39,336 bases of DNA from NCBI RefSeq assembly GCF_030409335.1, contig NZ_JAUFPN010000185.1, forward strand, positions 1-39,336, written 5' to 3'. The translations under genes and the position numbers were made by a program. Origin of the DNA: Paeniroseomonas aquatica. Its GTDB lineage: Bacteria; Pseudomonadota; Alphaproteobacteria; Acetobacterales; Acetobacteraceae. The notes under the pieces are model-generated. The model did no database searches. It was not told the DNA's origin and saw only the letters and a program-made list of their open reading frames with translations. Of this stretch, positions 1,565-32,272 are shown piece by piece. Each line of letters begins with the position of its first letter. Positions within the stretch are counted from its first letter, which is position 1.

Positions 1565-3313
1565 TCATCCGGCCCGGGGGCGGGCCGGGGCCCTGTCCCT
1601 GGCCCCCGCCCCGGCCCCCGCCCCGGCCCCTGCGGCCTGCCCCGCCGCGCTTTCGTCCCGCAAGGCTTCGCCCAGGATCTCCGCCACCTGCCGGCGCATG
1701 CGCATGGTGGTCGGCACGTGGTCGAGGCCGGACTCGATCCGGATCGTCAGGCCGGGCCAGTGCCTGGCGCTCCGGCGCGGCAGGCCGAGGGCCTCGTTCC
1801 AGATGCCGTGGCTGGGATCCTCCGCCCCCAGCAGGACGAAGACCGCCACCCCGCGCCGCGTCAGGGTCTCGAGCGCCTGGCGGGGCCGGCCCGCCGCGTC
1901 GCCGCGCAGCCATTGCCGGCCGCGGGCCGCCGCCGCGGCGAGCTGCCCCCAGAGCACCCGGCCGATGGCGAGCTCGCCCCGGCGCAGCTTGAGCCAGGCC
2001 TGCGGCTGGCCGAGCGCGCGCAGGTAGGTTGCCGGCCCGCGGGACATGACCCGCGCCATCTGCAGCATCTGGTCGCCGGCGCGCCACTGGAACACGAGCT
2101 GGTTGACCAGCAACAGCCGCTCGACCCGCGGCTCGGCCAGTGCGGCGTGGAAGGCGTGATAGGCCCCGGAACAGGTGCCCTGCAGGGCGAAGCGCCGGTA
2201 GCCGCGCGCCGCCAGGGCATCGATCGCCGCGCGGAAATCCTCCAGGCGGTCGGTCTCATAGGCATGCGTGTCGCCTTCCGCCGGCGAGCGGCTGTCGCCG
2301 AGCCCGGCGAAATCCAGCCGCAGCGAGGCGATGCCCCGGGCCGCGAGGTGCCGCGCCAGCACCACCGTGCTGCGCCCGAAGCCCACCCGCGGATCGTAGC
2401 CGGTATTGCCGATGATGACCGCGAGGCCGGGCGGCGCCTCGCCCGCCGGCCGGGCGAGGATCCCGACCAGGGCCGCCGCCGGGCCGAAGCGGAGCGGCTG
2501 CTCGACCCAGCCCTCGCCCGCCAGGGCGGGCATGGGATCGGGCGCTGCCGCCGGCACCGCGTCGCGGGGCGGGTGCCGGCGGCGCAGCCAGTCGATGGCG
2601 CGGTCGAAATCGGCCAGCGGCGGCGGGTGGTCTAACTGCGCGTGCAGCAGCGCCTTGAGGCCCTCGAAAGGCAGGGTGGCGACCGCGGCGCCGCTGCCGC
2701 GCCAGGCCTCGACGCAGGCCGCCGCGGCGGCCGCGGGGCCGGCGGCCAGCAGCAGCACGGCCTGGTCCGGGCGCAGCGCGACATGGCCGAGCGCGAGCTC
2801 CGCCAGCCGGTCCAGCGCGTCGCGCGGCAGCCAGCAGCCATCCGCCTCGAGATGGCCGGGCTCCGGCGCCGTGCTGGCGAAGCGCTCGGCGGCGCGCCAT
2901 TCGCGCACCTGGTCGCGGCCGGACAGCGGCGGCCCGAGCAGCATCAGGGCGGCGACGTCGGCCCGCCTGGCGGTCGCCGCCATGCCGAGCAGGGCGCCGA
3001 GGCGGAAGCCGCAGACCACGATGCGGGTCGCGCCGGAGAGCGTCCGCAGCCGGTCAGCGGCGGCCCGGATGGCCGCGAGCCAGGCCTCCGGCGCAGGCTC
3101 CGTCAGCTCGGCGGAATCGCCGCTGCCGGGGTAGTCCATGCGCAGCGTCGCATAGCCGGCCGCCGCCAGCCGGTCCGCCAGCAGCCGCAGCGCGCGATGC
3201 GACACGCAGGCCTCGCGCCCCAGCGCCGGGCAGACCAGCACGGCCGTCTCGCTGCCGCCGCCGGCCGACGCATGCAGCCAGCCGAAGCCGCCGGCGATCA
3301 GGACGGGCCGCAT
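1565..3313 (-). CDS. Fused tandem alpha/beta hydrolase, exosortase-A-hydrolase-like
   Basis: A 582-residue cytoplasmic protein made of two alpha/beta-hydrolase domains. Domain 1 (about residues 1-270) has RMDYPGSGDS and, at the nucleophile elbow, GFRLGALL, with Arg where serine is expected. Domain 2 (about 290-560) has IIGNTGYDPRVG, RLDFAGLGDS and an elbow GTCSGA with Cys at the nucleophile position. From memory of the families, RLGALL is typical of the exosortase-A-associated hydrolase 2 and the Cys elbow of hydrolase 1; here they appear as one chain. The C-terminus is an Ala-Gly ladder coded by a 12-base repeat. The start ATG at 3313 shares one base with the TGA of the upstream gene (TGATG), which implies translational coupling and sets the start. 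The open frame continues upstream to 4612, but that part is out of frame with the beta-lactamase-like gene and is a shadow. Confidence 0.75.
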   Translation of the reverse strand: MRPVLIAGGFGWLHASAGGGSETAVLVCPALGREACVSHRALRLLADRLAAAGYATLRMDYPGSGDSAELTEPAPEAWLAAIRAAADRLRTLSGATRIVVCGFRLGALLGMAATARRADVAALMLLGPPLSGRDQVREWRAAERFASTAPEPGHLEADGCWLPRDALDRLAELALGHVALRPDQAVLLLAAGPAAAAAACVEAWRGSGAAVATLPFEGLKALLHAQLDHPPPLADFDRAIDWLRRRHPPRDAVPAAAPDPMPALAGEGWVEQPLRFGPAAALVGILARPAGEAPPGLAVIIGNTGYDPRVGFGRSTVVLARHLAARGIASLRLDFAGLGDSRSPAEGDTHAYETDRLEDFRAAIDALAARGYRRFALQGTCSGAYHAFHAALAEPRVERLLLVNQLVFQWRAGDQMLQMARVMSRGPATYLRALGQPQAWLKLRRGELAIGRVLWGQLAAAAARGRQWLRGDAAGRPRQALETLTRRGVAVFVLLGAEDPSHGIWNEALGLPRRSARHWPGLTIRIESGLDHVPTTMRMRRQVAEILGEALRDESAAGQAAGAGAGAGAGARDRAPARPRAG

Positions 3314-4578
3314 CAGCCGGCCTCCCCGGCCGCGGGCTGGGCATGGGACTGGGCATGGGATTGGGCAGGGGGCTCGCCCTCGGACAGGGCCCGGGACAGC
3401 CGCTGCAGCAGCGCCGGCCAGTCGAGCTCGCCGGTCCGGTCGCCGGTGCGGAGCAGCACCATGCCGCGGGCGCGCGAGACGTACAGCACCTGGCCGAAGA
3501 GGCCGGAGGCGAAGATGTCGGGCGGGCCCGCCGGGTTGGCGAAGCTCCACCACAGCAGGCCGTAGCCCGGCGCCCCCTCCGGCGCGGTCGCGGCCTGGCC
3601 CAGGCCGGCGATCCAGTCCGCCGGCAGCAGCCGCGTGCCGTTGGCCAGCACCCCGCCCCGCAGCACCAGCGCGCCGATCCGCAGGTAGTCCTCGGCGCAG
3701 GCGGCGATGCCGCTTTCCATCTTCTCGAAGCCTTGGGCGTTGCTGTCGAGGATCCATTCGGCCGGGCAGGCCGCGCCCATCGGGCGCCAGAGCCGGCGTT
3801 CCAGGAAGCCCGATGGGGTCTCGCCGCTGGCGCGGGCGAGCGCCATCCCCAGCAGCATCGCGTTGCGGTCGTCGTAGAGGAAACGCTCCCCGGGCCCGAC
3901 CTCCGGCCGCACCGCCGCCGCCACCGCCCGGAGGTCGGGCGCGAAATGCATGCGCTGCGCCGCCCGCCAGGGCAGGCTGAGCGGACCCAGCGGCCACCGG
4001 TTGTCGAGGGCGAAGCCCGATTGCATGTCGAGCAGGTGGCGCAGCGTGACGCCGGAGCCGCGCAGGCCGGGGACCTCGGGCAGCAGCGTCTCGGCCGGGC
4101 TGTCCGGCGGCGGCAGCAGCCCGTCGCCGATCGCCGCGCCGACCAGCAGGCTGGTGACGGATTTCGCGACGGAGAAGGAATTCTGCGGGCTGCGCGGGCC
4201 ATGGCCGTTCAGGTAGGCGGCATAGGCCAGCCGGCCGTCCCGCAGCACCAGCAGCGTGTTGGTCCCGGCCTGCGCCAGCGTCTCCGGCAGCCGCGCGCCG
4301 GTCCAGGCGGCGCCGCCGATGCGGCCGAAGGCCTCGGCCACCGCCGCCGCGCCCTCCGGCGCCCGCGGCAGGGGCGACGGCACGGCCGGGGCGGCGATGG
4401 CCCGGACCGGGAAGCGCTGCCGGTCGAGCGGGCTGGGGTGCTGCCAGAGGACCAGGCGGCGCACGTAGTCCGGGCCGAATTGCCAGGCGGCGATGCCGAG
4501 GTCGGCGGCCAGGACGGCCACGCCGAAGGCGGCGGCGGCTAGGGCGAGGAGAACCAGCGGCGAAAACAGCATCTTCAT
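3313..4578 (-). CDS. Beta-lactamase-fold serine hydrolase, membrane-anchored
   Basis: A 421-residue class C beta-lactamase/esterase-family protein (6-aminohexanoate-dimer-hydrolase-like). A hydrophobic N-terminus (MLFSPLVLLALAAAAFGV) anchors or exports it. The catalytic SxxK motif is SVAKS, the second motif is the YDDRN region, and SGLFGQ stands near the place of the usual third motif. Such proteins hydrolyse esters or amides rather than acting as true beta-lactamases. ATG 4578 was preferred over a start at 4608 because GAGGT lies a few bases before it. The C-terminus carries a short repeated Ala-Gln-Ser-His segment coded by a 12-base repeat at 3339-3374. It overlaps the fused hydrolase by one base, so the two form an operon, and it is divergent from the GH2 gene. 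Confidence 0.82.
   Translation of the reverse strand: MKMLFSPLVLLALAAAAFGVAVLAADLGIAAWQFGPDYVRRLVLWQHPSPLDRQRFPVRAIAAPAVPSPLPRAPEGAAAVAEAFGRIGGAAWTGARLPETLAQAGTNTLLVLRDGRLAYAAYLNGHGPRSPQNSFSVAKSVTSLLVGAAIGDGLLPPPDSPAETLLPEVPGLRGSGVTLRHLLDMQSGFALDNRWPLGPLSLPWRAAQRMHFAPDLRAVAAAVRPEVGPGERFLYDDRNAMLLGMALARASGETPSGFLERRLWRPMGAACPAEWILDSNAQGFEKMESGIAACAEDYLRIGALVLRGGVLANGTRLLPADWIAGLGQAATAPEGAPGYGLLWWSFANPAGPPDIFASGLFGQVLYVSRARGMVLLRTGDRTGELDWPALLQRLSRALSEGEPPAQSHAQSHAQPAAGEAG
3339..3374 (-). repeat. Three 12-base tandem units
   Basis: Three imperfect copies of GGGCATGGGACT (plus-strand sense) lie in frame at the 3' end of the beta-lactamase-like gene and encode a hydrophilic Ala-Gln-Ser-His tail. 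Confidence 0.7.
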
Positions 4579-4695: not shown

Positions 4696-7188
4696 ATGGC
4701 AATGGTCGATTCCATCGATGGCCTGCAGCGGACGAGCCTGGAGGCGGGCTGGGAATTCTGCAGCACCGCCGCCGATGCCGTCGCCACGCCGGCGGCCTTC
4801 GGCCCGGCCGCGTGGCGGCCGGCGGTGGTGCCGGGCACGGTGGCGACGGCGCTGCGCGCCGCCGGCCTGGCCGATGCGGCGACCCTGGCCGGCCTCGCCG
4901 CCCGGGACCACTGGTACCGCCTGGCCTTCGTCGCCGAAGGCCCGCACCGGCTCCGCTTCGAGGGGCTGGCGACGCTGGCCGAGGTCTGGTGCAACGGCGA
5001 GCTCCTGCTGTGCTCGCACAGCATGTTCCGCGCCCAGGAGGCCGCCTTCCTGGGCCGCGGCGACAACCTGCTGCAGATCCGCTTCCGCGCCGCCGCGCCG
5101 GTGCTGGCGGCGCTGCGGCAGGGCCGGCCCCGGCCGCGATGGCGGCCCGTCCTGGCGCAGGAGCCCGGGCTGCGCTGGCTGCGCGCCACCCAGCTCGGCC
5201 ACATGCCGGGCTGGGAGCCGGCGATCCCGGTGGTCGGCCCCTACCGCCCGGTCCTGCTGCTGCGCGAGACCGGGCCGCTCCGCGTCGCGGCCGTGCAGCT
5301 GCGGCCGTCGCTCGATGCCGATGGCCGGACCGGCCGGCTGTCGCTGCGCCTGCGGCTGGCGCCGGGCTGCGAGCCCGGCGCCGCGCTGCTGCGCTGCGCC
5401 GGTGCCGCGGCCCCGCTGCAGGCGCTCGGCGACGGGCTCTGGGGCGCCGCGCTGCGGCTGCCGGAGGTGCCGGTCTGGTGGCCGGCGACCCATGGCGGGC
5501 AGCCGCGCCACGCCGCGGCGGTGGAGACCGCGGCGGGCGCCATCCGCTTCGCCCCGACCGGCTTTCGCCGCATCGAGCGCGAGGCGCGCGAGGACGGCCG
5601 CTTCCGGCTGCGGGTGAACGGCGAGGCCCTGTTCTGCCGCGGCGCCTGCTGGGCGCCGCCCGACCCCGCCGGCCTGCCCGGCGACGCGGCGGCGCTGCGG
5701 CCGACGCTGCTGGCGGCGCGCGCGGCGGGGATGAACATGCTGCGGGTCGGCGGCACCATGGCCTATGAGGCGCCGGCCTTCCACGCGCTCTGCGACGAGC
5801 TCGGGCTGCTGGTCTGGCAGGAGTTGATGTTCGCCAATTTCGACTACCCCGCGGCCGATCCGGCGTTCCTCGCCGAGGCGGTGGCGGAGGCCGAGGAGCT
5901 GCTGGAGCGGCTGGAGGCGTCCCCCAGCCTGGCGGTGCTCTGCGGCGGCAGCGAGGTGCAGCAGCAGGCGGCCATGCTCGGCGCGCCGCGCACCGCCTGG
6001 GCGCCGGGGCGGCTGTTCGACGATGCGCTCGCCGGGGTCGCGGCGCGGCTGGCCCCCGGGGTGCCCTGGCTGCCGGGCTCGCCGAGCGGCGGCGACCCGC
6101 CCTTCCGGGTCGATACCGGCGTCGCGCATTACTACGGCGTCGGCGCCTACATGCGGCCGCTCGAGGACGCCCGCCGCTGCGGCCTGGGCTTTGCGGCGGA
6201 GGCGCTGGCCTTCGCCAACGTGCCGGACGCCGGGTCGCCGGCCCTGGCCGGCTGGCCGCCGGTGCACCACCCGGGCTGGAAGGCGGGCGTCCCCCGCGAC
6301 CCCGGGGCCTCCTGGGACTTCGAGGATGTCCGCGACCACTACCTGGCCCGGCTGCATGGGCTGGATCCCGGGCTGCTGCGCCGCTCCGACCCGGAGCGCT
6401 ACCTGCGCCTGTCGCGCGCGGTCACCGCCCAGGTGATGGAGGCCTGCTTCACGGAATGGCGGCGGGTCGGCAGCGACTGCGGCGGCGCGCTGGTCTGGCT
6501 GCTGCGCGACGTCCAGCCCGGCGCCGGCTGGGGCGTGCTGGACCATGCCGGCGAGCCGAAGGCCGCCTGGCATGCGCTGCGCCGGTCGTTCCGCCCCCTG
6601 CAGCTGCTGCTGACCGACGAGGGCTGCAACGGGCTCGACCTGCATCTGCTGAACGAGCATGCGACGGCCTTCGCGGGCCGGGTCGCGCTCCGGGCGCTGC
6701 GCGCCGACGGCCGGGTCCTGGCGGCCGGGGAGGCCCCGGTCGTGCTGCCGCCGCGCGGCGCCCTGCGGATGCCGGCGCAGGCGCTGCTGGAGCATTTCGT
6801 CGACCTCAACGCGGCCTATCGCTTCGGGCCGGTCCGGCACGCCTGCGTCGTGGCGGCGCTGCGGGACGCGGCGGGGCGGGAGGTCGCCGATGCCTGGTCG
6901 TTTCCCGCCGGCCTGCCGGTCGCGCCCATGCCGCTCGGGCTCGAGGCGCGGCTCGAGGGCAGCGCCGCGGCGGGCTGGTCGCTCCTGCTCGGGACGCAGC
7001 GCCCGGCGGTGATGGTGCATGTCGAGGCGCCGCACTGGCGGGCGGCGGAGAACTGGTTCCACCTGGCGCCCGGCCCGCCGCGGGCGGTCGCGCTGCTGCC
7101 ACGCGGCGACCCTTCGCTGCCGGTCCAGGGCGAGGTGCATGCGCTGAACGGCGAGGCGCCCGCCGGCTTCCGGCAGGCGGCGGACTGA
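4696..7188 (+). CDS. Glycoside hydrolase family 2 protein, beta-mannosidase-like
   Basis: An 830-residue protein with the GH2 layout: a sugar-binding sandwich domain (residues 1-180; PGTVATAL, WYRLAF, LATLAEVWCNGELL), an immunoglobulin-like domain (about 190-290), a TIM barrel (about 300-620) and C-terminal sandwich domains. It has no signal peptide, so it is probably cytoplasmic. The likely acid/base is Glu420 in CGGSEVQQ and the likely nucleophile Glu502 in GFAAEALAF. GH2 enzymes normally have Asn directly before the acid/base; here it is Ser419, so activity or specificity may be unusual. AGGA lies 8-10 bases before the ATG, directly after the palindrome AATGATCATT (4673-4682). A hairpin terminator follows, so it is probably transcribed apart from the carrier-protein operon, although it lies next to it. 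Confidence 0.82.
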   Translation: MAMVDSIDGLQRTSLEAGWEFCSTAADAVATPAAFGPAAWRPAVVPGTVATALRAAGLADAATLAGLAARDHWYRLAFVAEGPHRLRFEGLATLAEVWCNGELLLCSHSMFRAQEAAFLGRGDNLLQIRFRAAAPVLAALRQGRPRPRWRPVLAQEPGLRWLRATQLGHMPGWEPAIPVVGPYRPVLLLRETGPLRVAAVQLRPSLDADGRTGRLSLRLRLAPGCEPGAALLRCAGAAAPLQALGDGLWGAALRLPEVPVWWPATHGGQPRHAAAVETAAGAIRFAPTGFRRIEREAREDGRFRLRVNGEALFCRGACWAPPDPAGLPGDAAALRPTLLAARAAGMNMLRVGGTMAYEAPAFHALCDELGLLVWQELMFANFDYPAADPAFLAEAVAEAEELLERLEASPSLAVLCGGSEVQQQAAMLGAPRTAWAPGRLFDDALAGVAARLAPGVPWLPGSPSGGDPPFRVDTGVAHYYGVGAYMRPLEDARRCGLGFAAEALAFANVPDAGSPALAGWPPVHHPGWKAGVPRDPGASWDFEDVRDHYLARLHGLDPGLLRRSDPERYLRLSRAVTAQVMEACFTEWRRVGSDCGGALVWLLRDVQPGAGWGVLDHAGEPKAAWHALRRSFRPLQLLLTDEGCNGLDLHLLNEHATAFAGRVALRALRADGRVLAAGEAPVVLPPRGALRMPAQALLEHFVDLNAAYRFGPVRHACVVAALRDAAGREVADAWSFPAGLPVAPMPLGLEARLEGSAAAGWSLLLGTQRPAVMVHVEAPHWRAAENWFHLAPGPPRAVALLPRGDPSLPVQGEVHALNGEAPAGFRQAAD

Positions 7189-7337: not shown

Positions 7338-7631
7338 ATGGCCGCTGATGGACAAGCAACATCCATGTCCGACGCCGGGATCCTGACGCGGATCCGCGGC
7401 CTGGTCGGCGACCATGGGCAGCTCGCGCTGGACGTGGCGACCCTGCCGGACGATGCGGATCTCTACGATGCCGGCCTGTCCTCGATGGCCACCGTGCAGC
7501 TGATGCTGGCGATCGAGGAGGCCTTCGACCTCGAGGTTCCCGACCGGCTGCTCAACCGCGGGACCTTCCGCAGCCTCGCCGCCATCGGCCGCGTGGTGAC
7601 GGAGCTGCTGGCCGCGACGCCCGGCCGATGA
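7338..7631 (+). CDS. Small carrier protein partner of the amino acid ligase
   Basis: A 97-residue acyl/peptidyl carrier protein. The motif LYDAGLSSMATVQLML corresponds to the ACP signature GxDSLxxVEL, placing the phosphopantetheine serine at Ser49. FDLEVPDRLLN is the usual helix III region. The GL-S-S-x-A-x-VQLML form is, from memory, characteristic of the carriers served by aaRS-like amino acid:[carrier protein] ligases rather than of fatty-acid ACP. ATG 7338 was chosen because GGAGGG lies 9-14 bases before it; a second ATG nine codons on is possible. Its TGA overlaps the next gene's ATG by four bases. Confidence 0.88.
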   Translation: MAADGQATSMSDAGILTRIRGLVGDHGQLALDVATLPDDADLYDAGLSSMATVQLMLAIEEAFDLEVPDRLLNRGTFRSLAAIGRVVTELLAATPGR

Positions 7632-8800
7632 GCCGGCGGCGCAGCACCGTCGCCGAGCGCGCCGCGCATGTCGGCCGCGAGGTCGCGGCCCCGGCCGCGG
7701 AGGCGGTCGACCGCGAGGCCCGCTTCCCGCACGAGGCGATGGCCGCGCTGCGCGAGGCCCGGCTGCTGGGGGCGCCGGTCGACAGCGGGCTCGGCGGCGA
7801 AGGCGCGGCCTTCGCCGAGATCGCCGAGGCCTGCCACGCGCTGGGACAGCACTGCGCCAATACCGCCATGGTCTTCGCGATGCACCAGATCCAGCTGGCC
7901 TGCCTGATCGACCATGGCCGCGACCGCGACTGGCCGCGCGACTTCCTGCGCGAGGTGGCGACGCGGCAGCTGCTGCTGGCGAGCGCCACGACGGAAGCCG
8001 CGACCGGCGGCGACACCAGCCGCAGCGACTGCGCCGTCGAGGCGGCCGGGGGGCGCATCGGCTTCCTCAAGCAGGGCTGCGTCATCTCCTATGCCGAGCA
8101 GGCGGATGCCGTCCTGGTGACGGCCCGCCGCGGCCCGGCCTCGCCGCCGTCCGATCAGGTGCTCTGCGTGGCGCGCCGCGACGACCTGCGGCTGGAGCCG
8201 GCCGGCGGCTGGGACGTGCTGGGGATGCGCGGCACCTGCAGCGCCACCTGGCACCTGCAGTTCACCGGCCTGCCCGAGCAGGTGCTGCCGGTGCCCTATG
8301 CGACGGTGCTCGAGCAGACCATGCTGCCGGTCTGCCACACGCTCTGGAGCAGCCTCTGGCTGGGCATCGCCGCCGATGCGCTGGGCCGCGCCGGCGGCTT
8401 CCTGCGGACGCGGGCGCGGCAGCATCCGACGGAACGCCCGGCCGGGGCGCGCCGCCTGGCCGAGGCGCTGACCACGCTGGACGTGGCCCGCGGCCATGTC
8501 GCCGGCGGCGTGCGCAGCTACGAGCAGTCCCGCGCCGCCGGGGCGGAGCAGCGCGGCCTCGGCTTCGGCCTGGCGATGAACGGGCTGAAGACCCGGACCT
8601 CGGCCACCGCCCTCGGCCTGGTGCAGGACGCCCTGCAGGTCTGCGGCATCGCCGGCTACCGGAACGGCACCGCCTGGAGCGTCGGGCGGCACCTGCGCGA
8701 CATAGCCTCCGCGCCGATCATGGTGAACAACGACCGCATCGCCGAGGCGACCGCCACCATGGCCCTGATGGCCCGTCCCCGGGAGACCCTGCTGCCATGA
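7628..8800 (+). CDS. Acyl-CoA dehydrogenase-like flavoprotein acting with the carrier protein
   Basis: A 390-residue protein of the acyl-CoA dehydrogenase superfamily: an N-terminal helical domain, a central beta domain (SATTEAATGGDTSRSDC, then FLKQGCVISYAEQADAVLVTA) and a C-terminal helical domain (LVQDALQVCGIAGY, then GRHLRDIASAPIMVNNDRIAEA). It would oxidise a thioester at the alpha-beta carbons using FAD, here plausibly an aminoacyl-S-carrier. In classical members the C-terminal segment reads RD..x..I.EGT, with Glu as the catalytic base; here the aligned residues are V-N-N-D, so that Glu is absent. The base must lie elsewhere or the chemistry differs. It overlaps by 4 bases (ATGA) with both neighbours. 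The family is clear; the substrate is inferred from the operon. Confidence 0.83.
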   Translation: MSRRRSTVAERAAHVGREVAAPAAEAVDREARFPHEAMAALREARLLGAPVDSGLGGEGAAFAEIAEACHALGQHCANTAMVFAMHQIQLACLIDHGRDRDWPRDFLREVATRQLLLASATTEAATGGDTSRSDCAVEAAGGRIGFLKQGCVISYAEQADAVLVTARRGPASPPSDQVLCVARRDDLRLEPAGGWDVLGMRGTCSATWHLQFTGLPEQVLPVPYATVLEQTMLPVCHTLWSSLWLGIAADALGRAGGFLRTRARQHPTERPAGARRLAEALTTLDVARGHVAGGVRSYEQSRAAGAEQRGLGFGLAMNGLKTRTSATALGLVQDALQVCGIAGYRNGTAWSVGRHLRDIASAPIMVNNDRIAEATATMALMARPRETLLP

Positions 8801-9720
8801 GCGGCGACCTGCTGCAGGAATTGTTCGCCGGCCGCCACCTGGTGCCGAGCGGCATCGACGGGCTCTACGGCCGCGGCCCCCTGTTCGAGGCGGTGGTGAC
8901 CCGGCTCGAGGCGATGATCGACCGGATGGTCTCGGCGGATGGCGCCGAGGTCATGCGCTTCCCGCCCGGCATGCCGCGCCGGGTGCTGGAGCGCAGCGGC
9001 TACCTGAAGAGCTTCCCCGACCTGGCGGGCGCCATCCACTGCTTCTGCGGCGACGAGCGCGCCCATGCCCGCTTGCTTGCGACGTTGGAGGCGGGCGGCG
9101 ACTGGACGGCGGCGACCACCGGCGCCGACATCGTGCTGACGCCGGCCGCCTGCTACCCGGTCTATCCCGCGGTCGCGGCGGCGGGGCCGCTGCCGCCGGA
9201 GGGACGGCTGATCGACGTCGCCTCCTGGTGCTTCCGGCACGAGCCGTCGCGCGACCCGGCGCGGCTGCAGATGTTCCGGATGCGCGAGCATGTCCGCATC
9301 GGCACGCCGGAGCAGGTGCGCCACTTCCGCGATGCCTGGATGGAGCGCGCCTCCGGCTTCGCCGCGGCGCTCGCGCTGCCGGCCCGGCTCGACCTCGCCA
9401 ACGACCCCTTCTTCGGGCGCGGCGGCAAGCTGATGGCCGACAGCCAGCGCGACCGGCAGCTGAAATTCGAATTGCTGATCCCGGTCGGCAGCGCCGAGCG
9501 CCCGACCGCCTGCATGAGCTTCAACTACCACCAGGATCACTTCGGCCAGGCCTGGGACATCCGGGCGGCGGGGCCCGGCGGCGCCGGGGCGGTGGCCCAT
9601 ACCGCCTGCGTGGGCTTCGGCATGGAACGCCTGACGCTGGCGATCCTGCGGCACCACGGCCTGCGGCCGGAGGCCTGGCCGGCCCCGCTGCGGACCGCGC
9701 TGGACTGGCCCGCGGCATGA
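8797..9720 (+). CDS. Amino acid:[carrier protein] ligase (class II aaRS homolog)
   Basis: A 307-residue protein equal to the catalytic core of an atypical seryl-tRNA synthetase without a tRNA-binding domain. Homologs are known to activate glycine or alanine with ATP and transfer it to the phosphopantetheine arm of a dedicated carrier protein. The expected zinc ligands are present: Cys119 (TPAACYPVYP), Glu164 (FRMREHV) and Cys271 (HTACVGFGMERL). The Cys-to-Glu spacing of 45 equals what I recall for the Bradyrhizobium enzyme (Cys131, Glu176, Cys279). Class II motif 2 is seen as CFRHEPSRDPARLQMF and motif 3 as GFGMERLTLA. The partner carrier gene is two genes upstream. Both ends overlap neighbours as ATGA. 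Confidence 0.92.
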   Translation: MSGDLLQELFAGRHLVPSGIDGLYGRGPLFEAVVTRLEAMIDRMVSADGAEVMRFPPGMPRRVLERSGYLKSFPDLAGAIHCFCGDERAHARLLATLEAGGDWTAATTGADIVLTPAACYPVYPAVAAAGPLPPEGRLIDVASWCFRHEPSRDPARLQMFRMREHVRIGTPEQVRHFRDAWMERASGFAAALALPARLDLANDPFFGRGGKLMADSQRDRQLKFELLIPVGSAERPTACMSFNYHQDHFGQAWDIRAAGPGGAGAVAHTACVGFGMERLTLAILRHHGLRPEAWPAPLRTALDWPAA

Positions 9721-10667
9721 CCGCCGCCACCGGCCAGCGCGCGCCCCACACCTGGCGGCCGCATCCGCTGCACGCCGCGGCGCGCGACTGGCCGGAGACC
9801 AATTGCTACACCGACCTCTGGATCTCCCTGCTGCACGACCGCGGCTTCGAGCCCACGGCGATGCTGGGCTTCCTGGCGGCGCAGGACTGGGAAGGCGACC
9901 AGTTCACTTTCTTCAAGCCGCCGCCGCAGGAGCTGCGGCTGCTCTATGGCGCCACGCTGCGCGAACTGGCGGTCTACGAGGTGCTGGAGGAGCACGTGGC
10001 CGAGGCGCTGCGGCGCGGCCAGGTGGTCCTGCTGGAAGTCGACGCCTGGTGGCTGCCCGATGTCGCCGCGACGGCCTATCGCCGCCACCACACCAAGACC
10101 ACGATCGGCATCCTGGCGGCCGACCCCGGCCGGCGGCAGCTGCGCTACCTGCACAATGCCGGCCGCTTCACCCTGCAGGGGGAGGATTACGACGGGATCC
10201 TGGCGGGCGGCGCGGCCCTGTTCCCCTATGCCGAGGCGGCGGGCTTCCTGCCGGCGGGCGGGCTGACCGGGCGGGAGCTGCGCGAGGCCGCAGCCCGCCT
10301 GCTGCGGGACCAGCTGCAGGGCGCGCGGCCGGCCCGGCCGGTCCAGGCCTTCGCCGCCGACCTGCCGCGGCTGCTGCAGGGGCTGGCGCGGCGCGACGCG
10401 GCGGCGCTGCACCGCTTCTCCTTCAACACGCTGCGGCAGCTGGGCGCGGCCTGCGAGCTGCTGGCGCGCCACCTGCTCTGGCTGCGGGAGGGCGAGGCCG
10501 TGCCGGCGGCGGCGGCGGCGCTCGAGGTCTCGGCCGGCGCCAAGGCCCTGCAATTCGTCCTGGCGCGGCAGCTCCGCCGCGGCGACACCACCTCCCCCGC
10601 CGCGCTGCAGGGCCTGGCCGAGACCCATGCGGCCATGCTCGACGGGCTGCGCCGCGACTTCGGCTGA
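9717..10667 (+). CDS. DUF1839-like protein of the carrier-protein operon
   Basis: A 316-residue soluble protein without signal or membrane segments. The N-terminal half is rich in conserved-looking aromatic and acidic positions (ETNCYTDLWISLLHDRG, GDQFTFFKP, EVDAWWLPD, HHTKTTIGI), and a more helical half follows. From memory it matches DUF1839, a family of unknown biochemical role that often sits beside amino acid:[carrier protein] ligases. The Cys and His residues (NCYTD, RRHHTKT) and the EVDAWWLPD patch recall papain-like or transglutaminase folds, which would suit acyl transfer from the carrier, but this is inference. The start is fixed by the ATGA overlap with the ligase gene. It ends the operon; a GC-rich 7-bp hairpin (10679-10703) without a T-run follows. 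Confidence 0.75.
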   Translation: MTAATGQRAPHTWRPHPLHAAARDWPETNCYTDLWISLLHDRGFEPTAMLGFLAAQDWEGDQFTFFKPPPQELRLLYGATLRELAVYEVLEEHVAEALRRGQVVLLEVDAWWLPDVAATAYRRHHTKTTIGILAADPGRRQLRYLHNAGRFTLQGEDYDGILAGGAALFPYAEAAGFLPAGGLTGRELREAAARLLRDQLQGARPARPVQAFAADLPRLLQGLARRDAAALHRFSFNTLRQLGAACELLARHLLWLREGEAVPAAAAALEVSAGAKALQFVLARQLRRGDTTSPAALQGLAETHAAMLDGLRRDFG

Positions 10668-11033: not shown

Positions 11034-14345
<3,312 letters not shown>

Positions 14346-14379
14346 CCGCCCAGCCGTGGCCGGGCCGCGCGGCGCGGGG

Positions 14380-14520
14380 TCGATGTGCAGGGTGACAGGC
14401 GCATATCCCGGCCGGTCTTTCGGTGCAGGACCGCACCAGTCCGGCACCGCGACGGTGCGGCCGCAGTAAGGAGCGGTCGGAGTCTCCGGTTCCGATGCCG
14501 GGGTGCCGAAGGTCGCGCCG
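14380..14520 (+). other. Structured intergenic element, possible cis-acting RNA
   Basis: This segment after dnaE2 holds several short perfect hairpins: GGTGC/GCACC around 14422-14437, GCACCG-CGA-CGGTGC around 14444-14458, CCGC/GCGG around 14461-14476, and CGGAG-T-CTCCG around 14479-14489. CGGTGCAGGACCG followed by CCGCGACGGTG loosely recalls parts of the cobalamin riboswitch core, but the GGGAA element and a good B12 box are missing, so no riboswitch is claimed. It lies upstream of the glycan operon. Confidence 0.3.
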
Positions 14521-14533
14521 TATTTCAAAATGG

Positions 14534-14565
14534 GTTACAAACAGGAACACGCGGAAGTTTGTAAC
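14534..14565. promoter_or_regulatory. 9-bp inverted repeat GTTACAAAC / GTTTGTAAC
   Basis: Two perfect 9-base arms are separated by 14 bases in a local AT-rich patch, 53 bases before the start of the glycan operon. A related GTTACATAA lies at 14599-14607. The arms are about two helical turns apart, which suits a dimeric regulator. GATTTTTGG follows the second arm, so a weak terminator for dnaE2 is the alternative. Confidence 0.45.
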
Positions 14566-14618
14566 GATTTTTGGCTCGAACCATGGCCAACCGGCCAGTT
14601 ACATAAGGTTTCCATTGA

Positions 14619-16823
14619 GTGGGCGAGATTTTCGAGCGGGAACGGTCGGCAACCGAACTCGGTTTCACCGGCGAGCGCCTGACCGGCACGATGCAGGGTC
14701 AGATCGAGATCGAGCATCTGCACCGTTACTTCCTGGCGCGACAGGCGAGTCGTGGCCTCGATGTGCTGGATATCGCCTGCGGCGAAGGCTACGGCAGTGC
14801 CTTGCTCGCCCAGGTGGCCCGCTCCGTCGTCGGCGTCGATGTCTCGGATGAGGCGGTGGGCTTCGCCCGGCAGTCCTACCGGCGGGACAACCTGCGCTTC
14901 CTGACCGGCGACGGCCGGGCCATCCCACTCGGCGATGCCTCGGTCGATGTGGTTGCCTCCTTCGAGACCTTGGAGCACCTGTACGAGCAGGAGCAATTCC
15001 TGGCGGAATGCCGGCGCGTGCTGCGGCCCGGCGGCCTGTTGCTGATCAGCACGCCGGACCGCGAGGTCTATTCGCCGGACGGCTCCACCGCCAACCGCTT
15101 CCACGTGCGGGAGCTGGACCTGGCGGAGTTCCACGCCGCGCTGGCGCCGCACTTCCCGCATGTCGGCATGTTCCGACAGCGGCCGATGCTCGGCTCGGCG
15201 ATACTGCCGCTGGCGCCCGATTCCGCGGCCCGGCCGGCGATCACCTTCGAGCAGCGTGGCCGCGACACCTTCGAGGCCAATGCCGGCCTGCCGAGGGCGC
15301 TGTATCTGCTGGCCTATTGTTCGGACCGTCCGGTCGCGCCGCCCTCGGCCAGCCTCTACATCGAGACCAGCCAGATCGAGCTGCGGGCCGCCGAGGCGGC
15401 GCGCCAGCAGGAGGCGCTGCGGGTGGAGGCGGCCAACCGGGCCGCGGAACTTGCGGCTGCACGCTTGCGCCACGCCGCGGAACTCGCGGCCGAGCGTTCG
15501 CGCCATGCCGCGGCCCTGGACACCGAGGAACGCCGCCACGCCGGGGAGCTGGCCTCCGCCCTGGCCGCCGCGCACGAAAGCCATGCCCAGCGCATGGCGG
15601 TCCAGGCGGCGGCCGTCGCCGCGATGCAGGAGGATCATGCCCGGCAGCTGGCGGCCGAATGCAGCCATGCCGCCGCCGCCCATGCCCGCGTCGGCGCGAT
15701 CGAGGCCAGCACCATCTGGCGGGCGACCGGGCCGCTGCGGGCGGCGCTGAGCGCCGCGCCCGGCATTCGGCGGCTTGGCCGCCGCGGCGCCAAGCTGGCG
15801 TGGTGGAGCCTGACCTTCCAGCTGCCGGACCGGCTGCGCCAGCGCCGCCAGATTCAGGCCTTGATCGCCGAGGCGGCTGCCGCCCCCCCGGCGCCGCCCG
15901 CGCCCATACCCGAGCCCTTGCCCGAGCCCGCACCCGCGCCCCTGCCTGATCCCCTGCCGGCCCGGACTACGCTTTCCCCGGTTGCCCTGCGGGTGCAGCA
16001 GCGGGCGTTGGGGAGCCTGCTGGCCCCGCCGCGGCTGGCGATCACCATCGGGCTGGTCACCTACGACAACGATCCGGCGGAGCTGGCGCGCTGCATCGCC
16101 AGCGCCCGGCTGGCGCTGGCGCAGGTCGACGGGCCGGGGCGCATCCTGGCCATCGACAACGGACGGCCGACCCCGCCCACGGAGGGCGTGGAATGGCTCC
16201 CGAGCGCCGGCAACATCGGCTTCGGCGCGGCCCACAACCGGCTGATGCAGGCCGCCTTCGCCGGCGGCGCCGAGCTCTATGTCGCGGTCAATCCGGACGG
16301 TGCCTTCTTCCCGGATTGCCTCGCCGCCATTGCCCGGATGCATGCCGCGCATGCCGGCCAGGCGCTGATCGAGGCATGCCAGTTCCCCGCCGAGCATCCG
16401 AAGGCCTACGACCCCGTCACCTTCGAGACCGCCTGGGCTTCGGGCGCCTGCCTGGCGGTCCCGCGCGGGCTGCATGAGGCGATCGGCGGCTTTGACGAGG
16501 ATTTCTTCATGTACTGCGAGGACGTCGACCTCTCCTGGCGGGCGCGGGCGCATGGCTTCGCCGTGCTCATCAATCCCGCCGCGCTGTTCCTGCATGCGGT
16601 GACGAACAGGACGCACCGGCCGCAGCTCTGGCCGATGATGCTGCGCTCCGGCCATGTGCTCGCGCGCAAATGGGGCAATCCGGAATTCGTGGCATGGGCC
16701 GAAGCGCAGCTGGCCAGCCTGGGCGAGGCGCCGCCCGGGGCGGAGCCGAAGCCGGTGCCGGAGTCCTGGCACGACATACCGGACTTCTCCCGCGGCTTCT
16801 CCTTCTCCCCGGTGCGCTGGTGA
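14619..16823 (+). CDS. Methyltransferase - coiled coil - GT2 glycosyltransferase fusion
   Basis: A 734-residue cytoplasmic protein for glycan assembly. Residues about 30-190 are a class I SAM methyltransferase (VLDIACGEGYGSAL motif I, ASFETLEHL, LRPGGLLLISTP). Residues about 245-355 are an Ala/Glu/Arg-rich coiled coil. Next come STIWRATGPLRAAL, a motif common in glycan-assembly proteins, and a Pro-rich linker (PEPLPEPAPAPLPDPLP). Residues about 465-710 are a GT2 domain of the rhamnosyltransferase type (GLVTYDNDPAEL, GNIGFGAAHNRLM, NPDGAFFPD, MYCEDVDLSWRARAHGF). Such fusions can cap or extend a polysaccharide chain by coupling methylation to sugar transfer. The GTG start is supported by AAGG about 10 bases before. 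It overlaps the next gene by four bases (GTGA). Confidence 0.85.
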   Translation: MGEIFERERSATELGFTGERLTGTMQGQIEIEHLHRYFLARQASRGLDVLDIACGEGYGSALLAQVARSVVGVDVSDEAVGFARQSYRRDNLRFLTGDGRAIPLGDASVDVVASFETLEHLYEQEQFLAECRRVLRPGGLLLISTPDREVYSPDGSTANRFHVRELDLAEFHAALAPHFPHVGMFRQRPMLGSAILPLAPDSAARPAITFEQRGRDTFEANAGLPRALYLLAYCSDRPVAPPSASLYIETSQIELRAAEAARQQEALRVEAANRAAELAAARLRHAAELAAERSRHAAALDTEERRHAGELASALAAAHESHAQRMAVQAAAVAAMQEDHARQLAAECSHAAAAHARVGAIEASTIWRATGPLRAALSAAPGIRRLGRRGAKLAWWSLTFQLPDRLRQRRQIQALIAEAAAAPPAPPAPIPEPLPEPAPAPLPDPLPARTTLSPVALRVQQRALGSLLAPPRLAITIGLVTYDNDPAELARCIASARLALAQVDGPGRILAIDNGRPTPPTEGVEWLPSAGNIGFGAAHNRLMQAAFAGGAELYVAVNPDGAFFPDCLAAIARMHAAHAGQALIEACQFPAEHPKAYDPVTFETAWASGACLAVPRGLHEAIGGFDEDFFMYCEDVDLSWRARAHGFAVLINPAALFLHAVTNRTHRPQLWPMMLRSGHVLARKWGNPEFVAWAEAQLASLGEAPPGAEPKPVPESWHDIPDFSRGFSFSPVRW

Positions 16824-20903: not shown

Positions 20904-21572
20904 TCAGCCCGACGGCGCCTCCTGCCGCGCGGCCAGCAGGCGCGCCGGCACGCCGACCGCCGTCCGCCCGGCCTCGACGTCACGGATGACGACGGCGCCC
21001 GCACCCACGAAGGCGGAGCGCCCGATGCGGCAATGCGGCATGACCCGGGCGCCGACGCCGAGTTCGGCGCCGTCCTCCACCACGACGCCGCCCGCCAGCG
21101 CCGTGCCGGGGCCAATGGAGACGAAGTCGCCGATCCGGCAATCATGCGCGATGGTGACGCCCGGGTTGACCAGGACATGGCGCCCTACCGTCACATCGGC
21201 CGTGATGGAGGAGAGGCCGGCGACCACGCTCCCCGGCCCCACCGTGACCGTGCGGCCGACCAGGGCACGCGGGTGGATCAGCGTGGCGAAGCGGGGGCCC
21301 GCCAGGGCCTCCACCCGGCGCACCGCCTCCGCGCGCCGGGTCGGGTTGCCGATCGCAATGAGGATGCGGACGCTCGGGTCCTGGCGCAGCAGGGCCGCGG
21401 CATCGCGCCAGACCGGAAGGCCGTGGACCTTGGCCGGCGCGTCAAAGGCCGCATCGACCACGAAGCCGAGCGGGGAAAGCGGGAGCCCTGCCGCTGCCGC
21501 GTCGCGCAGCATCTCGGCGACCTCCCGGCCGAGCCCGCCAGCACCGAAGATCGCAACCCGGATGATGCTCAT
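20904..21572 (-). CDS. NeuD/PglD-like sugar O- or N-acyltransferase (left-handed beta helix)
   Basis: A 222-residue protein with an N-terminal Rossmann-like domain (VAIFGAGGLGREVAEML) and a C-terminal left-handed beta helix of hexapeptide repeats (VTVGPGSVVAGLSSI, GRHVLVNPGVTIAHDC, IGDFVSIGPGTALAG). VTIAHDC contains the catalytic His. Such enzymes acetylate sialic acids or 4-amino sugars of UDP-linked precursors. It directly follows an aminotransferase gene (16-base gap), the expected order for making an N-acylated amino sugar. ATG 21572 was preferred to an upstream GTG at 21578 because of spacing from a GGGG site. Confidence 0.85.
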   Translation of the reverse strand: MSIIRVAIFGAGGLGREVAEMLRDAAAAGLPLSPLGFVVDAAFDAPAKVHGLPVWRDAAALLRQDPSVRILIAIGNPTRRAEAVRRVEALAGPRFATLIHPRALVGRTVTVGPGSVVAGLSSITADVTVGRHVLVNPGVTIAHDCRIGDFVSIGPGTALAGGVVVEDGAELGVGARVMPHCRIGRSAFVGAGAVVIRDVEAGRTAVGVPARLLAARQEAPSG

Positions 21573-21588
21573 GGGCACGACCCCAGGG

Positions 21589-22734
21589 TCAGGCCAGGCA
21601 TGCCGCGACCCGGGCGAGCTGGGCCGGCGTCAGGTCGACCAGGAACGGCAGGCCGATCACGCGGGGGGCGATGTCGTCGGTGACGCTGAGGTCATCGCGC
21701 GGGAGATCGGCGAAGGCCGCGTGCCGGTGCGTGCCGAGGCCCCACCAGCGGCGCCAGCCGACGCCCCCGGCGTCGAGCCGGTCAAGCCGGGTCTGCAGCT
21801 CCGCGCGCGGCAGGGTGACATTGAAGGTCATGGTCGCCCAGTCGCCGCCCGACGGCTGCTGCAGCCGCGCGCAGGAGCCGGCCAGGGCCCCGGCATAATC
21901 GCGGCCCAGGCGACGGAGCGCGGCTTCCTTGGCATCGACCTCCGCCAGCACGGCCAGGCCCATGGCCGCCGTGTATTCCGAGATGCGGTAATTGCCGCCC
22001 CGGAGATCCGATTGCCGGCTGCTGCCGGAGAAGCCGAAGCCGATCATGGATTCGATCCGGGCAGCCATGTCGCGGTCCGTCGTGATGACCGCGCCTCCCT
22101 CGCCGATGCCGAAGACCTTGGTGGCATGCAGGCTCACGCAGAGCGGCTGTCGGCCGATGCGGCGCAGGGAGGTGGCGGCGGCTGCGGCATCGAAGACAAC
22201 CGGCACGCCGTGCTCCCGCTCGAAGGCTTCCCACGCCTCGACATCCGGCGGGGCGCCGAAGGCGCTGACGACCAGGACGGCGGCCGGCGGCATGGCCATG
22301 CGGCGCATGGCACGCTCGGCCAGCACGGGCGTGAGAACGAGGGACTCCGCGTCCACATCGACCAGGAAAGGCGTGAGGCCCGCGTTGCAGACGGCGTGCG
22401 CGCTTGCGATGAAGGTGAAGGATGGCATGAGGCAGAGGTGTCGTCCCGCCGCCGCACGGAGGCGGAGCGCCACCTCGATCGCCGTGGTGCCGCTGCTGGT
22501 CGGCACGACGTGGACACCCCGCACGCCGGCGCGAAGGCCGAGCCATCGCGCGAAGCCGTCACGGAAGGCCGTCCAGAGCGGCCCCTGATTGCTGTAGATC
22601 CGCGTCTCGTCGATCCGGCGAAGAAAAGGCAGCACCCGGTCGATCGTCGGCAGGCTCGGACGCAGCACGGGAATGGGCTGCTCCGCCTGAGGCGATCGCA
22701 GGAAGGCATCGGCGGGTCCCGCGGCTGTGTCCAC
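21589..22734 (-). CDS. DegT/DnrJ/EryC1-family sugar aminotransferase
   Basis: A 381-residue PLP enzyme that would transfer an amino group to a keto-sugar nucleotide. PTSSGTTAIEVAL binds PLP phosphate, VFDAAAAATS carries the Asp that contacts the PLP ring nitrogen (Asp182), and SLHATKVFGIGEGG contains Lys206, the Schiff-base lysine; this is the standard family motif. The assigned start is GTG at 22734; no strong ribosome binding site was seen, so a later start is possible. With the downstream acyltransferase it forms a two-gene unit for an acylated amino sugar. The keto-sugar-forming dehydratase is not in the window. Confidence 0.85.
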   Translation of the reverse strand: MDTAAGPADAFLRSPQAEQPIPVLRPSLPTIDRVLPFLRRIDETRIYSNQGPLWTAFRDGFARWLGLRAGVRGVHVVPTSSGTTAIEVALRLRAAAGRHLCLMPSFTFIASAHAVCNAGLTPFLVDVDAESLVLTPVLAERAMRRMAMPPAAVLVVSAFGAPPDVEAWEAFEREHGVPVVFDAAAAATSLRRIGRQPLCVSLHATKVFGIGEGGAVITTDRDMAARIESMIGFGFSGSSRQSDLRGGNYRISEYTAAMGLAVLAEVDAKEAALRRLGRDYAGALAGSCARLQQPSGGDWATMTFNVTLPRAELQTRLDRLDAGGVGWRRWWGLGTHRHAAFADLPRDDLSVTDDIAPRVIGLPFLVDLTPAQLARVAACLA

Positions 22735-31606: not shown

Positions 31607-32272
31607 ATGTGCAACCTCTACAGCATCACCAAGGGTCAGCAGGCGATCCGCGAATTCACCAGGGCGATGACCGACCGGACGGGCAACCTGCCGCCGCTGC
31701 CCGGCGTCTATCCCGACTACGCGGCGCCGATCGTCCGCAACCGGCCGGAGGGCCGCGAGCTGGCCATGGCCCGCTGGGGCATGCCCTCGCCCGCCTTCGC
31801 GCTGAAGGGCCGCAAGACCGATCCCGGCGTCACCAATGTCCGCAACGCCCAGTCCCCGCACTGGCGCCGCTGGCTCGGGCCCGAGCACCGCTGCGTGGTG
31901 CCCTTCGGCAGCTTCGCCGAGCATGAGGTGCTGCCGGACGGCAGCCGCCCGCCGGTCTGGTTCGCCCGCGACGAGGGCCGGCCGCTGGCGGCCTTCGCCG
32001 GGATCTGGACCCGCTGGACCTCGGTGCGCAAGCTCAAGGAGGGCGAGACGACGAACGACCTCTTCGCCTTCCTGACCACCACGCCGAATGCCGAGGTGGC
32101 GGCGGTGCATCCCAAGGCCATGCCGGTCATCCTGACCACGCCGGAGGAGATCGACACCTGGCTCTCGGCCGGCACGGAGGAAGCGCTGGCGCTGCAGCGG
32201 CCGCTGGCCGATGGCGCGCTGGTCGTCGTCGCCCGGGGCGAGAAGCAGGACGGGGCGCCCGCCGCGTCCTGA
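31607..32272 (+). CDS. SRAP-domain protein (YedK/HMCES family)
   Basis: A 221-residue protein of the SOS-response-associated peptidase family, which crosslinks to abasic sites in single-stranded DNA through its second residue. MCNLY gives the essential Cys2; Asn77 (TNVRN), the Glu region FAEHE at 104-107 and His168 (VHPKAMPVIL) complete the active site. GGGAGG lies about 10 bases before the ATG. The stop codon overlaps the dinB start by one base (TGATG), so the abasic-site shield and a translesion polymerase are coupled in one transcript. No LexA box was found in the 270 bases upstream. Confidence 0.9.
   Translation: MCNLYSITKGQQAIREFTRAMTDRTGNLPPLPGVYPDYAAPIVRNRPEGRELAMARWGMPSPAFALKGRKTDPGVTNVRNAQSPHWRRWLGPEHRCVVPFGSFAEHEVLPDGSRPPVWFARDEGRPLAAFAGIWTRWTSVRKLKEGETTNDLFAFLTTTPNAEVAAVHPKAMPVILTTPEEIDTWLSAGTEEALALQRPLADGALVVVARGEKQDGAPAAS

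Follow-up and report, generated by a model that had tools for sequence, protein, structure and literature searches.

The window analysed here is a 39,336-nucleotide stretch of the Paeniroseomonas aquatica genome (contig NZ_JAUFPN010000185.1), and the system in question is a gene cassette that includes a protein of the DUF1839 family. Four open reading frames (ORFs) lie head to tail on the + strand, all of them open. The first encodes a carrier protein, a phosphopantetheine acceptor (7338..7631; 97 amino acids, or 88 if translation starts at the ATG at 7365) recognised by PP-binding and NF005480. It is followed by an acyl-CoA-dehydrogenase-fold flavoprotein (7628..8800; 390 amino acids), identified through Acyl-CoA_dh_N, an AlphaFold2 (AF2) model and Foldseek, and by an amino acid:[carrier protein] (aa:CP) ligase with a seryl-tRNA-synthetase-like core (8797..9720; 307 amino acids), assigned through NF005479 and the Bll0957 structures. 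The last is a papain-like DUF1839 protein (9717..10667; 316 amino acids; PF08893, AF2 and Foldseek), a putative aminoacyl-S-carrier:amino-sugar amide synthase. Dicodon log-odds are positive for all four (carrier 63 from 7365, flavoprotein 212, ligase 167, DUF1839 214).

A preliminary description of this DNA had proposed four genes joined by three ATGA overlaps, and their positions, frames, strand and families are all borne out, with overlaps at 7628, 8797 and 9717. The limits it drew (7338-10667) enclose these four genes correctly and leave outside two linked ones: a beta-mannosidase-like glycosidase of glycoside hydrolase family 2 (GH2; 4696..7188, + strand, 830 amino acids; PF22666, beta-mannosidase structures) and a tandem alpha/beta-hydrolase related to XrtA-associated hydrolases 1 and 2 (1565..3313, - strand, 582 amino acids; Hydrolase_4, with TIGR03100 below its cut-off). 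Both had been described as merely nearby, a view that the comparison below does not uphold.

Conservation of the cassette across genomes and plasmids

Sixty loci encoding DUF1839 relatives were fetched and the six proteins were sought in them. Presence was counted by tblastn because the dicodon gene caller gives wrong calls for some antisense ORFs (clusters 15 and 36), and loci with too short a flank were dropped, hence denominators of 48 to 57 out of 60. The flavoprotein and the GH2 glycosidase were found in every judgeable locus (56/56 each), the carrier in 54/55, the ligase in 53/57 and the tandem hydrolase, on either strand and anywhere in the locus, in 41/48; the latter and the glycosidase thus belong to the cassette. 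Among the numbered loci, L062-L065 are repeats of L076-L079. The commonest order is carrier, flavoprotein, ligase, DUF1839, GH2, then often the hydrolase. The window differs in having GH2 upstream on the same strand and the hydrolase further out on the opposite strand. The gene set spans Alpha- and Betaproteobacteria, one Myxococcota and two actinobacterial loci, and the usual order also occurs in metagenome bins of Myxococcota (L053), Acidimicrobiia (L054) and Frankiales (L056). Three loci (L019 from Roseibium denhamense and the metagenome bins L040 and L051) have the arrangement carrier-flavoprotein-DUF1839-GH2, in which DUF1839 comes after the flavoprotein without an intervening ligase gene; L030 has a carrier-ligase pair some 30 kb away from the cassette.

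The ATGA overlap was considered as a conserved mark of the cassette and rejected on the junction counts in the 60 loci: with starts chosen by rule, an exact ATGA was seen at 16/55 carrier/flavoprotein, 0/53 flavoprotein/ligase and 0/56 ligase/DUF1839 junctions. Gaps of at most 100 bases are common at the same junctions (54/55, 53/53 and 55/56 respectively). Pairwise-identity correlations among the six families range from r 0.69 to 0.94, with 0/200 permutations as high; these values agree with shared descent and equally with species history. The family alignments comprised 64 distinct of 67 rows for the carrier, 62 of 65 for the flavoprotein, 66 of 74 for the ligase, 63 of 70 for DUF1839, 59 of 59 for GH2 and 46 of 46 for the hydrolase.

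In a class-level sample of 385 genomes, DUF1839 occurs in five and the ligase in 10 above the cut-off (19 at E <= 0.001); a family-level sample of 200 genomes yields three with DUF1839 and 11 with the ligase above the cut-off (13 at E <= 0.001). Every DUF1839 genome has an adjacent ligase match: 5/5 in the class sample (hypergeometric 3.7e-9) and 3/3 in the family sample (1.3e-4). The window's genome, which counts in both samples, has one match to each protein, and DUF1839 is absent from all three other sampled genomes of its genus. Carrier, flavoprotein and a ligase match stand alongside in all seven distinct DUF1839 genomes, G693 among them, and GH2 in six of the seven.

DUF1839 is also present in 59 plasmid records, 15 of which were examined. 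All five core genes (carrier, flavoprotein, ligase, DUF1839 and GH2) are found in 13 of the 15 and the hydrolase in seven, and the five-gene sets are carried by plasmids of Rhizobium, Azospirillum, Shinella, Phyllobacterium, Mycetohabitans and Caballeronia. Individual records show further arrangements. On one Rhizobium leguminosarum plasmid (L118) GH2 is shortened and a transposase lies beside the cassette; on another (L106) the cassette is decayed: apart from DUF1839, only parts of the ligase and GH2 are left, and a nonribosomal peptide synthetase lies nearby. The Cupriavidus metallidurans CH34 megaplasmid (L108) carries two DUF1839 genes about 4 kb apart (9001-9939 and 13852-14682), one within a five-gene cassette and the other separate on the opposite strand. 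In a Rhizobium gallicum plasmid (L110:1-13511) the five-gene cassette is flanked by nif genes and an annotated 1-aminocyclopropane-1-carboxylate (ACC) deaminase gene.

The cassette is thus real, compact and recurring, and it is patchy in occurrence. Co-occurrence by chance or through a local effect is ruled out by the genome samples, the 60 loci and the plasmid records. The comparison of neighbourhoods that the preliminary description had recommended as a check therefore shows carrier, flavoprotein, ligase and DUF1839 regularly together, as a conserved unit.

Predicted loading of the carrier protein

The carrier scores 38 bits with PP-binding and 98.4 bits with NF005480 (cut-off 72). Its predicted site of modification is Ser49 (97-amino-acid numbering), in a column kept in at least 95% of the aligned rows, in agreement with the earlier statement that the modified serine is retained. 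An AcpS-type phosphopantetheinyl transferase is fused to the carrier in the actinobacterial locus L054, and L053 has one of Sfp type just beyond its cassette; from their sequences, these two arrangements independently support carrier chemistry.

The ligase passes the cut-off of the NF005479 amino acid--[ACP] ligase family (468.7 bits against 357) and matches the Bll0957 structures 4h2w (E 4e-97) and 3mey (E 2e-94) over nearly its whole length, so its assignment as an aa:CP ligase holds by both family profile and solved relatives. Cys119, Glu164 and Cys271, which we take to be the zinc ligands and which had been singled out from the window alone, are invariant in 26 aligned ligases (25 of 77 sequences, picked for spread, and the window). 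Mocibob et al. are said to have described the aa:CP ligases in 2010, with substrate preferences for Gly and Ala, and we know of no identified end product for these enzymes. Carrier loading by such ligases is reported in two papers (PMC2922099; PMC9437257). On the strength of these sequence features, a small amino acid is very probably loaded onto the carrier.

A papain-like enzyme as the candidate transferase

The DUF1839 protein matches PF08893 with 312.3 bits (cut-off 22.5). Its AF2 model, built on a 39-sequence alignment (38 of 71 tblastn hits, picked for spread, and the window), has a mean predicted local distance difference test (pLDDT) score of 92.5 and shows a papain-like domain followed by a helical C-terminal part. 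When the model was compared with the Protein Data Bank by Foldseek, all 13 matches at E <= 0.001 were chains of AziU2-U3, CtaG or CcbD, at E values from 7e-8 to 5e-4 and over about the full length. The CcbD/LmbD entries 7yn2 and 9dks were matched at E 2.9e-4 and 5.4e-4, with template modelling (TM) scores of 0.52-0.57 and a root-mean-square deviation (rmsd) of 6.3-6.5. The AziU2-U3 complex comes from the azinomycin pathway, CtaG from that of closthioamide and CcbD from that of celesticetin; AziU2-U3, CtaG and the BtrH-type enzymes work with carrier proteins. In CcbD, a carrier-tethered proline goes onto a Cys and is then attacked by the amino group of a thiooctose (PMC12945683).

Cys30, Lys127 and His146 are invariant in 39/39 DUF1839 sequences, all of which have Thr or Ser at position 128. 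A 2023 paper gave DUF1839 a papain-like fold with a C(T/S)H site (PMC10318531), a pattern that Cys30, Thr/Ser128 and His146 fit. It was the only paper on DUF1839/PF08893 that we found, subscription journals lying mostly outside the scope of the search, and it makes no mention of CcbD, LmbD, AziU3 or CtaG. It suggests, from genomic context, an acyl-CoA-dependent processing of cell-wall glycans by DUF1839 proteins. The enzyme could accordingly be a papain-like hydrolase that removes glycan- or peptide-linked groups rather than a transferase, as its fold and Cys nucleophile would allow and as a weak match to the pseudomurein endoisopeptidase PeiR (E 0.13, probability 0.96) might hint. No hydrolase appears at E 0.001, however, where 13/13 matches are AziU2-U3, CtaG or CcbD, and the gene is closely linked to those for carrier and ligase; we regard this alternative as improbable.

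Transfer of the amino acid by the DUF1839 protein has a longer history. A note in proof from 2010 described the same neighbourhood, predicted that an ORF without known function couples the amino acid to a surface sugar through the sugar's amino group, and predicted that the redox enzyme modifies the aminoacyl group (PMC2922099). The preliminary description, which held that the next steps of the flavoprotein and the DUF1839 protein were not established as far as it knew, had thus been anticipated on both; its suggestion that DUF1839 passes the amino acid on had already been printed, and now has the fold matches to CcbD, CtaG and AziU2-U3 behind it. These matches, made with a predicted model, are new here, and the one to CcbD offers a concrete mechanism for the surface-sugar amidation foreseen in 2010. 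Judging from the model, the DUF1839 protein probably transfers its acyl group to the amine of an amino sugar.

The flavoprotein

The flavoprotein has the fold and family profile of the acyl-CoA dehydrogenases (Acyl-CoA_dh_N, 41.7 bits; AF2 model pLDDT 90.1). The catalytic Glu of a classical acyl-CoA dehydrogenase sits in a "YEG" motif. Alignment to solved dehydrogenases places Val366 at that position in the window, and Ile or Val occupies it in 27/27 sequences (26 of 71, picked for spread, and the window); His86, His237, Asn368, Asp369 and Arg370 are invariant in the same set. Nor was the Glu of the isovaleryl-CoA-dehydrogenase type seen when its expected position was judged by eye. An identity as an ordinary acyl-CoA dehydrogenase appears weakened by this sequence pattern. 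The missing Glu is nevertheless compatible with a dehydrogenase because 7p98, the best solved match, also lacks it and carries Thr there. Foldseek lists dehydrogenases and the monooxygenases DszC/TdsC together as neighbours of the model, so the fold search makes no choice between the two activities.

We lean slightly towards a flavin-dependent change of the bound group before its transfer. A more specific and rather doubtful proposal is that the flavoprotein carries out a new reaction on carrier-bound Gly or Ala, which would become either N-oxygenated or oxidised to an imino or keto acyl group, and that DUF1839 then installs the unusual acyl group on a 2-amino sugar, giving an undescribed surface or secreted modification.

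The glycosidase and the tandem hydrolase

The GH2 protein matches PF22666 with 55.5 bits, and no export signal was seen in it by eye. Ser419, Glu420 and the nucleophile Glu502 are present in 59/59 sequences. Glu420 aligns with a Glu of 6byg and Glu502 with a Glu of 5n6u (profile of 14 of 66 sequences, picked for spread, and the window); in the 5n6u alignment there is no Glu in the acid/base column. The residue before the acid/base, Asn in 6byg, is replaced by Ser419 throughout, so that the Asn expected of a beta-mannosidase is lacking, whereas W319, probably the Trp typical of mannosidases, is kept. A 2025 survey of GH2 connects Ser at this position with glucosaminidases (Ser-Asp) that accept an amino group at C2, and gives the Ser-Glu subfamily GH2_14 possible substituted substrates (PMC12243196). 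From these residues, one may reasonably guess that the substrate is a beta-linked sugar substituted at C2.

The tandem hydrolase matches Hydrolase_4 (59.3 bits), and it also matches TIGR03100 (119 bits, cut-off 168.45) and TIGR03101, in both cases under the curated cut-off. Its first domain has lost the nucleophile, which is Arg or Gly in 44/46 sequences, and its second keeps Cys381 and His532 in 46/46. On plasmid p3 of Rhizobium sp. NLR16a (L111:13850-17158) a Polysacc_synt_3 flippase is fused to the tandem hydrolase in a protein of 1103 amino acids, flanked by GT4 genes.

These two enzymes bear on a further alternative, in which no conjugate is made: a free oxidised product such as an alpha-keto or imino acid is released, with DUF1839 and the tandem hydrolase serving as thioesterases. 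The constant presence of the flavoprotein and the Cys nucleophile of the tandem hydrolase are consistent with such a route, which would leave unexplained both an equally constant GH2 glycosidase and the CcbD-like architecture of DUF1839. We think it has little chance of being correct.

Glycan genes and the nature of the product

Among the 60 loci, clusters of glycosyltransferases are found in 37, of flippases in 25 and of polysaccharide deacetylases in 12, and 40 loci have at least one of them. Only clusters common to at least two loci enter these counts, so unshared glycan genes are missed, and the counts are not independent because many loci come from close relatives (Roseibium, Methylobacterium). 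In L054 a PIG-L de-N-acetylase lies between GH2 and the hydrolase; it and the polysaccharide deacetylases could supply free amines. That glycan genes always surround the cassette was ruled out by the 20 of the 60 loci without counted clusters. The surface decoration raised as a possibility in the preliminary description accordingly remains plausible on the 40 loci and is left without this context in the 20 others.

The product might instead be a small diffusible amino-sugar conjugate, that is, a specialised metabolite. The five core genes sit together on plasmids of six genera, no glycan gene stands among the annotated neighbours in L105, L109, L110 and L113 (where the gene table is incomplete), CcbD as the closest mechanism builds an antibiotic, and a third of the loci lack counted glycan clusters. 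Set against this are the glycosyltransferase, flippase or deacetylase clusters of the other two thirds, many of them close relatives, and the flippase-hydrolase fusion of Rhizobium sp. NLR16a. A diffusible conjugate is in our view rather unlikely, and we incline modestly to a role in a surface glycan rather than in a soluble conjugate.

Within the window, some 10 kb away from the cassette, genes for a PglD-like acyltransferase and a DegT-type aminotransferase form an amino-sugar pair (20904-22734). Between the tandem hydrolase and GH2 lies a beta-lactamase-fold serine hydrolase (3313..4578, - strand; PF00144, 101 bits) that has no counterpart among the protein clusters of the other DUF1839 loci. 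Judged by eye, 11034-14345 encodes an error-prone DNA polymerase III alpha subunit (DnaE2-like) and 32272-33399 a DinB-like Y-family polymerase.

Ligase loci without DUF1839

The ligase often occurs without DUF1839: there are 14 such loci above the cut-off, several near contig ends. Two of them (L070 and L072) encode proteins of 291 and 285 amino acids that are 38% identical to each other and have no family match in Pfam or NCBIfam. The tandem hydrolase occurs without the flavoprotein in five (L071, L074, L093, L094 and L096), and Acyl_transf_3, GNAT or MBOAT proteins lie near the ligase in three (L093, L096 and, by likeness to L093, L094). L093 and L094 come from the window's genus and are a separate ligase locus with carrier, ligase and tandem hydrolase; L093 adds Acyl_transf_3, GNAT, MBOAT and GDSL proteins, and the DNA of L094 is 78-81% alike to it.

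More distant ligases have an MBOAT protein at two of three loci. In these two (L080:7065-10115 and L081:5502-9771) ligase homologues below the NF005479 cut-off lie beside the MBOAT protein and a carrier, a layout resembling that of D-alanylation (Dlt) by analogy, with an aminoacyl-tRNA-synthetase-like ligase in place of DltA. In the third (L082:6538-8705) the ligase adjoins a carrier-like protein, recognised by eye, and an AurF-type N-oxygenase, which may point to N-oxygenation of amino acids on carriers as a recurrent theme. From what is a minority of loci, we suggest that a shared aminoacyl-carrier supply may be able to feed different acceptor enzymes.

Discussion

We propose, with a probability of roughly 0.6, that the cassette is self-contained and combines an aminoacyl-carrier, a flavin-dependent change and a DUF1839-catalysed transfer to an amino sugar. 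Using ATP, the ligase would activate a small amino acid, probably Gly or Ala, to load it onto the carrier's pantetheine, as shown for its relatives. The flavoprotein would then act on the aminoacyl thioester by dehydrogenation or N-oxygenation. Cys30 of the DUF1839 protein would accept the acyl group, which would next pass to the amine of the amino sugar, forming the amide in a ping-pong reaction like that of CcbD, as fold and context suggest. GH2 may act on a glycoside, probably one with an amino or other substituent at C2. The tandem hydrolase, whose second domain carries a Cys nucleophile, may be a thioesterase or an acyl-transfer partner near glycan export. The likeliest product would be a surface glycan or a soluble sugar conjugate that bears an aminoacyl-type decoration. 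The acceptor, the flavoprotein reaction and the product are what we infer from sequences and models.

Several observations weigh against this proposal. For DUF1839, the Foldseek similarity is moderate (TM 0.52-0.59, rmsd 5.5-6.9) and compares overall folds only, and in PMC10318531 the order of the catalytic His and its partner is altered. Sequence profile searches link the family to no solved structure convincingly. Against BtrH, hhalign gives a probability of 6.6% (E 0.0055), and the BtrH_N family PF14399 scores 12.7 bits, under its cut-off of 29.7. Membership of DUF1839 in BtrH_N by sequence was rejected on these two results, the structural likeness being kept. The ligase has no match anywhere in the genomes of L019, L040 and L051, which keep the cassette, and in genome G693 the ligase match contains an in-frame stop. 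GH2 is closest to beta-mannosidases, its nearest solved relatives, and not to glucosaminidases, and the Ser-Glu subfamily GH2_14 contains beta-galactosidases (PMC12243196). Counted glycan clusters are lacking from 20/60 loci, eight of which are shorter than 12 kb, and some plasmid cassettes adjoin unrelated genes such as nif. Finally, the idea of interchangeable acceptor enzymes draws on a minority of loci because a recognised acyltransferase is missing from 11 of the 14 ligase loci without DUF1839.

If DUF1839 is a CcbD-like amide synthase and GH2 works on a sugar substituted at C2, the class of acceptor can be guessed specifically enough to be tested. If our proposal is true, aminoacylated sugars would be made on carrier proteins in many bacteria that live in soil, with plants or as symbionts, and no longer in one antibiotic pathway only; both the Pfam family DUF1839 and an acyl-CoA-dehydrogenase-fold branch that lacks the usual base would gain a function. 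Both the neighbourhood and the outline of the amidation had been predicted in print before; the present analysis gives a sharper picture of the cassette's composition, its likely chemistry and the class of its acceptor.

Among known systems, that of Bll0957 and its carrier in Bradyrhizobium japonicum (PMC2922099) has ligase, carrier and flavoprotein in common with the window. The locus L070, which we take to be Bradyrhizobium-like, likewise has carrier, flavoprotein and ligase as in the window, but neither DUF1839 nor GH2, and its 291-amino-acid protein follows the ligase. The tandem hydrolase recalls XrtA-associated hydrolases 1 and 2 of exopolysaccharide loci at scores below the cut-offs. 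BtrH, CtaG and AziU3 resemble DUF1839 in joining a papain-like domain to a helical C-terminal part; Cys, His and Asp are invariant in seven BtrH-type proteins, whereas DUF1839 has Cys30, Thr/Ser128 and His146. The lincosamide synthetase (CcbD/LmbD with the carrier CcbZ/LmbN and the adenylation domain CcbC/LmbC) also turns a carrier-bound amino acid into an amino-sugar amide by means of a Cys enzyme resembling cysteine proteases, and the fold match between CcbD and DUF1839 covers about the full length. Unlike it, the window has an aminoacyl-tRNA-synthetase-type ligase in place of the adenylation domain, with a flavoprotein and GH2 in addition, and the catalytic residues of DUF1839 are apparently ordered otherwise than in the Cys-His-Glu triad of CcbD/LmbD; the likeness is a structural one with no sequence homology shown.

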